Under the pieces are notes generated by a model. That model was not told where the DNA came from. It saw only the letters and a program-made list of their open reading frames with translations, and searched no databases. Below, one piece after another: positions 42,426 to 45,026 of a DNA stretch of 64,000 nt. Position numbers and translations under genes: made by a program. Origin of the DNA: Xenophilus azovorans DSM 13620 (lineage in GTDB: Bacteria > Pseudomonadota > Gammaproteobacteria > Burkholderiales > Burkholderiaceae_C). The stretch covers positions 1 to 64,000 of the forward strand of contig NZ_JQKD01000015.1 in the NCBI RefSeq assembly GCF_000745855.1. The letters are read 5' to 3'. Positions within the stretch are counted from its first letter, which is position 1, and each line of letters begins with the position of its first letter.

Positions 42426-42452
42426 ATCGCTATTCCTTCGATGAATAGCGAT
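42426..42452. promoter_or_regulatory. ModE-type operator before the nitroreductase gene
   Basis: ATCGCTATTC and GAATAGCGAT form perfect 10-bp arms around CTTCGAT. The arms begin with the ATCGCTAT core known from the E. coli ModE site. It lies between the divergent modE and nitroreductase genes and can serve both. Confidence 0.75.
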
Positions 42453-42473
42453 CCTTCCACCCGCCGAGACGTC

Positions 42474-43517
42474 ATGCCCGCCCCTCTTCCCCTCGCCGGC
42501 CTCGGCCGGCACTTGTTGCGCTCGGTGCTGCGCGTGAGCCTGCCCATCCAGGACCTGCCTGCCCTGCTGCCCGGCGCCGACGCATCGATGAGCGACGCCG
42601 CGCTGCGCCGCCTGGCCGAGAGCACCGCGGCCGCCGGCGGCGAAGGCGCCGCGGCCGTCCAGGCACGCCTCGACGCACTGCACGCCGGCGCGCTGGCCCG
42701 CTTCGCGCCGGCGGCCGACGCCGCCGCGCTGGAGGCGCTGTGGCGCACGGCCCTGCGGGGCGAACTCCCGCTGGAAGGCGCCTACTGGGCCCTGCTGGTC
42801 CATCCGCAGGCCGACCGCACCCTGCGCCACGTGGCCTTCGGCGACGTGGAGATGCTGCGCCCGGCCGACGCCGCCCCGGCCTCGCTGGGCGCGCTGCTGG
42901 AGCGCCGCTCCATCTCGCCGCGCCGGCTGGACGCACCCGGCCCGGGCGCGCAGGACATCGAGCTGATGGTGCAGGCCGCGCTCAGCGCGCCCGACCACGG
43001 CCGGCTGCACCCCTGGCGCGTGATCGAGTTCCGGACGCCGCAGCGCGAGGCGCTGGCCGCGCTGTTCGAGGCCGAGAAGCGGCGGCGCGACCCGCTCGCC
43101 AGCGCCGCCGACCTGCGCCGCGCCCGCGCCCACGCCACCGAGGCGCCCTGCCTGCTGGGCTTCGTCGTCTCGCCGCGCGCGCGCAAGCGCGTGCCGCTGC
43201 GCGAGCAGTGGCTGGCCGCCGGCGCGGCGCTGGGCAACCTGCTGAACGCGGCGCACCAGCTCGGCTACGGCGGCATCGTGCTCAGCGGCGAGCGCTGCTT
43301 CGACGACGCGCTGGCCCGCCAGCTCGGCCTGCAGCCGGGCGAGCACCTGGCCGGCTTCGTCAGCCTGGGCACGGCCCGCGAGCCGGCGCCGCCCACCGCA
43401 CGCGCGCTGCCGCAGGAGGTGTGGCGCTGCTGGACGCCCGACACCGCTGCGGCGCCCGTGCCGCGCGGCCCGGCGCTGCCCGCGGCGCGCGCGCTGGACG
43501 GCGAGGGCCTTCCATGA
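42474..43517 (+). CDS. Nitroreductase-family protein with an extra N-terminal domain
   Basis: A 347-residue protein starting MPAPLPLAGLGRHLLRSVLR. The N-terminal 125 residues are helical (MSDAALRRLAESTAAAGGEG, LWRTALRGELPLEGAYWALL) and not typical of nitroreductases; from memory they faintly resemble the N-terminal part of DUF2325 proteins, with low certainty. Residues about 138-320 form an FMN nitroreductase: ERRSISPRRLDAPGPGAQDI, SAPDHGRLHPWRVIEF and AGAALGNLLNAAHQLGYGGI. An ATG at 42441 lies inside the ModE box and is rejected as start. Placement under a ModE box suggests a molybdenum-related role. Confidence 0.7.
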   Translation: MPAPLPLAGLGRHLLRSVLRVSLPIQDLPALLPGADASMSDAALRRLAESTAAAGGEGAAAVQARLDALHAGALARFAPAADAAALEALWRTALRGELPLEGAYWALLVHPQADRTLRHVAFGDVEMLRPADAAPASLGALLERRSISPRRLDAPGPGAQDIELMVQAALSAPDHGRLHPWRVIEFRTPQREALAALFEAEKRRRDPLASAADLRRARAHATEAPCLLGFVVSPRARKRVPLREQWLAAGAALGNLLNAAHQLGYGGIVLSGERCFDDALARQLGLQPGEHLAGFVSLGTAREPAPPTARALPQEVWRCWTPDTAAAPVPRGPALPAARALDGEGLP

Positions 43518-44218
43518 ACGACACCGCGGCAGACATCGTCTGCCGCCCCATCGGTCACATCCGCAGCCGCTTCCCGGTGCCGGAGGGCGTGCCGGTGCAG
43601 GCCGCCGGCGTGCCGCACGAGACGGCGACGCTGGAAGTGCTGCCTGCCTACGCCGCCGGCCTGCGCGACATCGAGGGCTTCGACCACCTGCTGCTCATCA
43701 CGCACTTCCACCGCTGCCCGCGCGAGCTGCTGGAGGTGACGCCCTTCCTCGACCCGCAGCCCCATGGCGTGTTCGCCACCCGCGCGCCGGCGCGGCCCAA
43801 CCGGCTGGGCCTGTCGGTGGTGCGGCTGCTGCACGTGGAAGGCCGGCTGCTGCACTTCGCCGGCAACGACCTGGTCGACGGCACGCCGGTGCGAGGGCCT
43901 GCTGGCGCCCTGCAAGGGGCCGCGAAGCTCATCCCAGCCCGCCCATCAAGGCGCGCGACGCCGTGCGTGCGTCCGCACGCACAAGGAGCGCAACGCCGAG
44001 GGGCGGGCTGGGATGAGCTTCCCTCCGGGTTGCTTCGCAAAGGGGCCCCTTGCAGGGCGCCAGCAGGCCCTCCCATCAAGCCCTATGTGGCGCGCTTCGA
44101 CGCGCCTGCGCCCGGGCGCATCGGCTGGTTCGAGGGCCGCCTCGACGACCTGGCCGGGCGCCGCGCCGACGATCGTTATGACCGCCATACGCCGGACGGC
44201 ACGAAGCCGCAGCCCTGA
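43514..44218 (+). CDS. TrmO/YaeB-family protein interrupted in frame by a palindromic element
   Basis: A 234-residue protein starting MNDTAADIVCRPIGHIRSRF. The UPF0066/TrmO family is clear: PIGHIRSRFPVPEGVPVQA, IEGFDHLLLITHFHRC, ATRAPARPNRLGLSVVRLL and GNDLVDGTPV, then after a gap IKPYVARFDAPAPGRIGWFE. TrmO methylates N6 of t6A37 in some tRNAs using SAM. Between GTPV and IKPY, where relatives have only about three residues, lie about 60 extra residues encoded by a 180-bp palindrome (43893-44072). The frame remains open. The overlap with the nitroreductase gene (ATGA) and its place before modA suggest a ModE-controlled operon, so a Mo-linked role is possible. Confidence 0.75.
   Translation: MNDTAADIVCRPIGHIRSRFPVPEGVPVQAAGVPHETATLEVLPAYAAGLRDIEGFDHLLLITHFHRCPRELLEVTPFLDPQPHGVFATRAPARPNRLGLSVVRLLHVEGRLLHFAGNDLVDGTPVRGPAGALQGAAKLIPARPSRRATPCVRPHAQGAQRRGAGWDELPSGLLRKGAPCRAPAGPPIKPYVARFDAPAPGRIGWFEGRLDDLAGRRADDRYDRHTPDGTKPQP
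43893..44072. repeat. 180-bp palindromic element inserted in frame in the trmO-like gene
   Basis: The outer arms (43893-43921 and 44044-44072) are perfect inverted repeats of 29 bp. The inner arms (43925-43944 and 44001-44020) are perfect over 20 bp. A third stem GTGCGTGCG/CGCACGCAC lies in the centre at about 43962-43982. The outer-inner gap is 3 bp on the left and 23 bp on the right, so the structure is asymmetric. Length is a multiple of three, and no stop codon occurs in the trmO frame. It looks like a small palindromic mobile repeat that became coding. Confidence 0.85.
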
Positions 44219-44230
44219 CCGCTATGATTC

Positions 44231-44253
44231 CGCTATTCCTCTGATGAATAACG
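44231..44253 (+). promoter_or_regulatory. ModE-type operator before modA
   Basis: CGCTATTC and GAATAACG (one mismatch from the perfect inverted repeat) are separated by CTCTGAT, 12 bp before the modA start. It matches the box before the nitroreductase gene in 8-base arms and N7 spacing. It probably represses modABC when molybdate is ample. Confidence 0.75.
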
Positions 44254-44264
44254 AAAGGACGACC

Positions 44265-45026
44265 ATGCAAGTGAACCGTTGGCTGCGTGCCGCCGCGTGC
44301 GCCCTGACCCTCACCGCCGCCAGCCCGCTGCTGTGGGCGCAGGAGATCGTGGTCTCCGCCGCCGCCAGCCTGACCAACGCCTTCCAGGCCGTCGGCAAGG
44401 CATGGTCGCAGGCCAACCCCGGGCACAAGGCGACCTTCAACTTCGCCGCCTCGGGCGCGCTGCTCGCACAGATGCAGCAGGGCGCGCCGGTGGACGTGTT
44501 CGCCTCGGCCGACCAGCCCACCATGGACAAGGCGCAGGCCGCCGGCCTGATCGCGCAGGGCACGCGCAGCGACTTCGTGAAGAACGAGCTGGTGCTGATC
44601 GTGCCGGCCAAGTCGTCGAAGGTGCCCAAGTCGCTGGACGACCTGGCCGGCGGCGCCTACCAGCGCATCGCCGCCGGCACGCCCGCCTCGGTGCCGGTGG
44701 GCCGCTACACCATGGGCGTGATCGAGCAGGCCAAGCTCGACGCGCCGCTCAAGCCCAAGTGGATCTACGGCGAGAGCGTGCGCCAGGTGCTCGACTACGT
44801 GGCGCGCGGCGAGGTCGACGCCGGCTTCGTCTACCGCACCGACGCGATGGTCAAGAAGGACGAGACGCAGATCGCCTTCGCCGTGCCGACCACCACCCCG
44901 GTGACTTACCCCATCGCCCAGCTCGCCGCCAGCAAGCAGCCGGCCGCGGCGCAGTCCTTCATCGCCTTCGTCAAGGGCGCGGAAGGACGGAAGATCCTCC
45001 AGAGCTTCGGCTTCGCCCAACCCTGA
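44265..45026 (+). CDS. modA: Molybdate ABC transporter substrate-binding protein
   Basis: A 253-residue periplasmic protein starting MQVNRWLRAAACALTLTAAS, signal peptide cleaved near LWA|QE. The ligand-binding elements are VVSAAASLTNAFQAVGKAW and FNFAASGALLAQMQQGAPVD, where serines contact molybdate, and VDVFASADQPTMDKAQ. AAGGA precedes the ATG. A ModE box overlaps its promoter region. It delivers molybdate to ModBC, which in turn supplies the cox hydroxylase nearby. Confidence 0.95.
   Translation: MQVNRWLRAAACALTLTAASPLLWAQEIVVSAAASLTNAFQAVGKAWSQANPGHKATFNFAASGALLAQMQQGAPVDVFASADQPTMDKAQAAGLIAQGTRSDFVKNELVLIVPAKSSKVPKSLDDLAGGAYQRIAAGTPASVPVGRYTMGVIEQAKLDAPLKPKWIYGESVRQVLDYVARGEVDAGFVYRTDAMVKKDETQIAFAVPTTTPVTYPIAQLAASKQPAAAQSFIAFVKGAEGRKILQSFGFAQP

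Follow-up and report, generated by a model that had tools for sequence, protein, structure and literature searches.

The palindrome found inside a trmO-family gene of Xenophilus azovorans DSM 13620 is very probably an internally deleted copy of a MITE that lacks a transposase, which would have been moved by IS5-family enzymes, would fit the reading frame by chance and would leave a TrmO protein that is probably impaired. It is classified as a MITE because its ends, target, copies and empty sites fit that class, its conserved internal structure being unusual. Coordinates refer to the window, the whole stretch of 64,000 nucleotides that was analysed, unless they follow the handle of another locus (L) or genome (G).

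The original prediction had described perfect outer arms of 29 bp, perfect inner arms of 20 bp and a central hairpin, all of which were recovered where it had placed them. The outer arms widen to 32 nt at 97% identity (43890-43921 and 44044-44075), and the inner ones span 24 nt at 96% (43924-43947 and 43998-44021). The strand folds at -163.4 kcal/mol, shuffled versions averaging -98.5 (z = -13.4) and 0 of 200 being as stable. Regarding the extent of the unit, 43893-44072 stands for the palindrome but not for the mobile unit proper, whose outermost dinucleotides on that interval are flank; the earlier description is also corrected in that the second hairpin of full-length family members is absent from the window copy. 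Covariance model R1 matched this copy with 168 bits (E 4e-36) over model positions 1-264 with an internal gap. The features are as follows:

43895 to 44070, plus strand: element proper, a 176-bp internally deleted copy of the 264-bp family, without hairpin 2 (88 nt), placed by covariance model R1 and alignment
43893 to 43894, no strand: GA, the dinucleotide next to the left end, where 31 of 40 full-length copies have TA
44071 to 44072, no strand: TC, the dinucleotide next to the right end, where 30 of 40 full-length copies have TA
43893 to 43921, plus strand: left outer arm, perfect over 29 bp, its outer part being the terminal inverted repeat GGGCCTG...
44044 to 44072, plus strand: right outer arm, perfect over 29 bp, its first GGCC (44044-44047) coming from the start of hairpin 2
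43924 to 44021, plus strand: hairpin 1, with perfect 20-bp arms at 43924-43943 and 44002-44021 and a small central hairpin at 43963-43982
43947 to 43955, plus strand: conserved box CAAGGCGCG of hairpin 1, from the family consensus
43990 to 43998, plus strand: conserved box GCAACGCCG of hairpin 1, from the family consensus
44021 to 44029, plus strand: conserved CCCNNNGGG in the linker joining the two hairpins
44047 to 44048, plus strand: internal-deletion junction where hairpin 2 is missing, strong matches to other copies stopping at 44047

The host gene and its neighbours are arranged as follows:

42441 to 43517: nitroreductase-like gene upstream of trmO, its stop overlapped by the trmO start
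43514 to 44218, plus strand: trmO-family gene carrying the element, 234 aa (PF01980, TIGR00104)
44265 to 45026, plus strand: modA (molybdate-binding protein), downstream of trmO and followed by modB (TIGR01256, TIGR02141)

The encoded protein matches PF01980 at residues 25-126 (E 8.5e-30), and TIGR00104 with 92.8 bits, slightly below the cut-off of 93.25. Its frame is open throughout 43514-44218 with a net gain of 177 nt, in agreement with the in-frame insert that had been proposed, and alignment of homologues refines the roughly 60 residues said to be added between GTPV and IKPY to 61 that replace Leu-Asp, a net gain of 59. Other Comamonadaceae homologues read GTPV-LD-IKPY while the window gene reads GTPV-(61 residues)-IKPY, the intact GTPVLDIKPY motif being absent. 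The Asp preceding [IV]KP was kept in all 16 homologue loci that have the motif, as judged by pattern match among 21 loci examined, and the window TrmO is probably impaired because this conserved residue is lost. Between the window trmO and its four nearest homologues, pN/pS was 0.57-0.71 for the part before the insert and 0.73-0.78 for the part after it, the four homologues themselves giving 0.29-0.55 and 0.10-0.63 among each other; when the window gene was compared with five homologues at a greater distance (L208-L212), the two values were 0.49-0.78 and 0.54-0.72, perhaps due in part to saturation. The difference is modest, and is only suggestive of relaxed constraint on the window gene. The gene looks accessory, to judge from its distribution: outside the insert, the TrmO protein matched its own genome only among 15 genus genomes; at the level of the family, a search with residues 1-125 hit 20 of 299 genomes, and the poorest hit (E 9e-4) is probably not TrmO. 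A role of the palindrome as terminator or promoter for modABC was dropped, a consensus check of 43450-44450 having found neither a terminator-like nor a sigma-70-like site.

Full-length members of the family run on past the point where strong matches to the window copy end. The full element reads GGGCCTG...CAGGCCC, is mostly flanked by TA on both sides and retains the second hairpin lost here; it is GC-rich and without transposase, its two hairpins being enclosed by a long outer stem. Besides the window copy, its genome holds 3 full-length copies and shortened ones, three further loci being 91-94% identical to the palindrome over the shared part and another being partial. DNA matches occur in 11 of the 15 genus genomes, own genome included, and these, together with the copies at unrelated loci of the own genome, bear out the mobile palindrome put forward in the original prediction. 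After four partial loci (L237, L244, L245 and L246) and seven duplicate copies had been left out, 40 distinct full-length copies of 263-267 bp were retained, 23 of them measuring exactly 264 bp. TA stands at both flanks in 27 of the 40, the left triplet being CTA in 25 and the right one TAG in 26, and the window copy has GA/TC rather than TA/TA. Scanning with a 20-base core returned 99 stretches, and the 80 that were read comprised 21 true copies and 59 unrelated sequences; at least these 21 true copies lie in records of Xenophilus, Pseudacidovorax, Variovorax, Paracidovorax, Acidovorax and Proteobacteria MAGs. A DNA search of 400 genomes was scored on the two best candidates per genome. PLSDB contained no plasmid match for the L285 and L293 types; for the subfamily of the window copy there were two matches, one full and the other partial, each on a replicon of Variovorax paradoxus.

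A candidate mobiliser is provided by genome G014, where three 805-bp insertion sequences (L165 261-1065, L166 233-1037 and L167 987-1791) are flanked by TA and share 16-17 terminal bases with some element copies. Their ends are GGGCCTGTTAACACTA, with one end reading GGGTCTG, one base different, in 2 of the 3. The coding content was examined for L165, whose transposase is spread over two frames and belongs to the IS5 family (NF033580, PF13340 and PF01609), and L166 and L167 were examined for their ends; we take these insertion sequences to belong to the IS427 group. The likeness to the element concerns the ends and the TA flanks, just those terminal bases being common between it and an insertion sequence of 805 bp with a two-frame transposase. 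IS5-family transposases would most likely be the enzymes that move the element, acting in trans, into TA/CTAG sites. The own genome, a draft of 132 contigs in which a more changed IS end would escape, showed no pair of such ends at IS distance with up to one mismatch. For a second type of end (GGGCTCGTTAATG...), no partner-IS pair about 0.8-1.5 kb apart was found in 8 genomes at the same tolerance, the spacings between such ends being only 45-50 bp, ~150-365 bp and ~265 bp. An empty site was recognized for the one copy tested, L014, which interrupts a transporter-binding-protein-like gene, 7 of the 15 genomes being uninterrupted at that locus. For trmO itself the empty site is deduced from other genera, because no genus relative has an insert-free gene (own genome alone matched outside the insert among the 15).

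The original insertion probably entered the leucine codon of GTPV-LD-IKPY, at a target that would have been CTA|GAC; hairpin 2 and some flank would have been lost afterwards, leaving by chance an open frame with 59 extra residues. Compared with the consensus of the family, six of the first 30 bases in the left arm are substituted. For five of these the facing part of the right arm survives and carries the matching base in every case; the sixth (T to C at 43920) is matched by a base that came to lie in the right arm through the deletion only. A single fold-back template switch, in which the nascent 3' GGCC (44044-44047) pairs with the GGCC at 43918-43921 and copies the left arm outwards, would account in one step for the missing hairpin 2, a right arm without mismatches and the GA/TC flank. 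Copying of arms in place beyond the element received no support: in the 40 copies and the window copy, a change on one side was seen in 10 flank pairs and on both sides in 6, of which just 3 were complementary, so that the complementary flank change of the window copy does not stand out.

The stems of the element change in step. In the alignment of 40 copies, 97.7% of the cells at 102 stem pairs are paired; both sides have changed in 55 of these pairs against 23.8 in shuffles, and in 325 cells against 67.6. Any of the five covariation measures was attained by 0 of 500 shuffles, and the signal was destroyed when partners were slid by 1-3 columns. Of the changes in ten sister pairs along the tree, 56 affected one side of a stem pair and 27 were double and matched, where the rate at unpaired sites would predict ~3 of the latter.

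Such strong covariation, together with the near-constant length and with the sequence boxes kept in most further elements (see below), speaks in favor of a functional RNA, namely a terminator, regulator or guide lying between transposon ends, in which selection on the RNA fold would explain the paired changes. Selection on one strand should nonetheless favour G-U over A-C, and the inferred non-Watson-Crick events amount to 36 G-U and 31 A-C (p = 0.63). The corresponding cells of the 40 copies are 49 and 34 (p = 0.12), and 43 other elements show 107 G-U and 79 A-C cells in 48 and 43 distinct states, a slight G-U excess in an alignment that is model-fitted and leans towards the model. The near-equal counts therefore indicate that the arms are matched at the DNA level, and little sign is seen of selection on one RNA strand. 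Many elements moreover match the covariance model on both strands, and no Rfam family was matched by window positions 43700-44300 or by five full-copy loci, where the only hits were to eukaryotic microRNA and lncRNA models and scored well under the gathering threshold (best E 0.22). Thus, a functional RNA is an unlikely account of the element. Template switching, or else selection acting on a DNA cruciform, could keep the arms of the MITE matched. In the available part of one source (PMC8794818), template switching is said to be capable of both generating hairpins and preserving them, and in that of another (PMC8604942), of homogenising the arms of inverted repeats.

The family reaches well beyond the genus. 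At E <= 1e-3, the covariance model matched 13 of the 15 genus genomes, with full-length matches (E < 1e-30) in 8; among the 13 is G001, whose sole match, L267, looks unrelated, being a distinct 122-bp palindrome of GACGCAGAGGACGCAAAGG-type units (1501-1622) that fits the model weakly. In Burkholderiales, 84 of 300 genomes were matched at E <= 1e-3, 71 of them below 1e-15, and at E <= 1e-6 the matches included 50 of 274 genomes of the same class and 34 of 299 of the same phylum, the draws for order, class and phylum each containing the own genome and some closer relatives. Out of the 34 genomes from the phylum draw, 22 lie outside the class, and the sequence was examined for two of these (L337 and L339).

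From the retrieved loci, a subset of all matches, 48 further elements were collected, 5 of them from Comamonadaceae (L282, L273, L281, L279 and L340); 46 measure 260-268 bp. Three boxes are present in 44 of the 48 and two in the other 4, as compared with three in 0 and two in 3 of 960 shuffles, under a test that tolerated up to one mismatch each in C[AT]AGGCGC and GCAACGCCG and none in CCCNNNGGG, and that is partly circular because the 48 were found with a model containing the boxes. With that proviso, the conserved boxes argue against mere palindromes. The boxes of hairpin 1 recur in hairpin 2, where their order is inverted. The terminal repeats vary (GGGCCTGTTCACAC, GGGCTCGTTAATG, GAGCCTGTTCA, GTAGTGTTTCAC, TACTCCGTCAAGG, TGTACTG and others), and TA is present on both sides in only 6 of the 48, CTAG standing on both sides in L314 and L318. 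It is tentatively suggested, as a plausible reading that we hold with some doubt, that the 264-bp double-hairpin core could be an ancient cis-acting DNA structure persisting across Pseudomonadota between different IS ends. Its length, box hairpins and junction would then be kept at the DNA level, by cruciform recognition or by self-correction through template switching, and the element would be a structured passenger with a function of its own instead of a deletion derivative of one IS.

Regarding the reading frame, a standard full-length insertion adds 264 + 2 = 266 bp, and a full-length copy shifts the frame because this is not a multiple of three. Among the 88 elements (40 + 48), at least 5 further full-length copies lie within genes (L014, L232, L230, L311 and L317), a lower bound because intragenic position was judged from base composition and by eye; L232 was missed by the scan and added from frame analysis. 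None of these others keeps an open frame, each being frameshifted or stopped, so that the window copy is the sole open in-frame case among at least 6. In L230 the phase of the gene is kept, yet a TAG stop stands at the edge of the element. In 13 of 23 copies examined, a coding-like frame ended exactly at the edge, with a TAG stop formed by TA and the base with which the element begins. Several frames of the element are poor in stops, frame +0 being free of them in 14 of the 16 exactly 264-bp copies examined, so the single open in-frame copy may be due to chance. As named by eye, in some cases from flanking translations, the genes with full-length elements are Lrp-like regulator (L230), ABC-exporter-like (L311) and thioesterase-like (L317) ones, and a full-length element splits out of frame a glutamate/aspartate-binding-protein-like gene at L012/L232 (G005).

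These observations bear on a coding palindrome of the Rickettsia type, which would spread in frame into genes with its added peptide tolerated or selected. The open, in-frame trmO copy fits that reading, as do the stop-free frame +0 and the phase kept by L230, but the length of the standard insertion, the fate of the five other intragenic copies and the removal by the insert of a residue conserved in all 16 motif-bearing homologues make it quite improbable. The likeness to Rickettsia palindromic elements that had been pointed out is superficial, because no other intragenic copy keeps an open frame, and the in-frame fit of the MITE copy in trmO was probably luck and not design.

An ordinary lineage-specific TrmO loop, palindromic by accident, would agree with the lack of a second genus trmO by which to date the insert, but is next to inconceivable given DNA 91-94% similar at three unrelated loci of the own genome, relative to which the window copy is internally deleted; the original prediction had named the absence of the element elsewhere in other genomes as one mark of such a loop, and copies were found elsewhere in the own genome and in relatives.

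Among known systems, bacterial MITEs (RUP, Correia/NEMIS, ERIC and MITEAba12) are, in the accessible parts of three sources (PMC2229807, PMC10969869 and PMC6382973), likewise short elements without a transposase gene and with terminal inverted repeats, several with repeats matching an IS or with TA ends, and occur in many copies that are intergenic and sometimes intragenic. The present element differs from them in that (i) it is GC-rich, (ii) ~264 bp is held across very divergent sequences, (iii) two inverted, box-bearing hairpin modules lie within a covarying outer stem, and (iv) the same core is found with different terminal repeats depending on the genome. With Rickettsia palindromic elements, as portrayed in the available text of PMC2229807 and PMC10969869, it shares a mobile palindrome in frame within a conserved gene, and in that of the former TA is given at both ends of at least one of them. 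By description those elements are ~105-150 bp long and recurrently in frame (PMC2229807 and PMC10969869, in part), whereas the present one measures 263-267 bp, or 176 bp in the window, with the one open in-frame case mentioned above. The enterobacterial RU-1, RU-2 and RU-3, according to the part of PMC2759123 at hand, are likewise small mobile sequences that contain open frames and in some cases are joined to genes, and are set apart by description, being enterobacterial and of 103-168 bp. No description of the element family was found in Rfam or in the literature on small bacterial mobile sequences, which was mostly open-access and to which ISfinder was external.

MITEs are usually viewed as debris of one IS. 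A length and three-way-junction architecture recurring across the phylum, with stems changing in step and different ends, raises the testable question of what reads the structure, and the near-equal G-U and A-C counts constitute a natural data set for asking if template switching is sufficient by itself to preserve long palindromes. For annotation, the window illustrates that an element of this kind can be mistaken for a loop of the protein even as it probably disables the conserved enzyme in which it lies.

Derivatives with one hairpin, or with nearly the ends alone, were also found. Related single-hairpin elements of 174-175 bp with other ends (CTTCACGAATGCGCGCGCC...) recur in the genus (L265, L266, L274 and L276, in G008 and G003). 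At what is apparently one locus in two species (L179 at ~774, and L227), a full element is present in one species and just ~15 bases of one end in the other, which resembles a deletion scar. Palindromes of 48-50 bp consisting of nearly just two terminal repeats (GGGCTCGTTAATG...) are present in G452 (C5:30670-30719) and G421 (C73:73761-73808), and are among the smallest derivatives observed.
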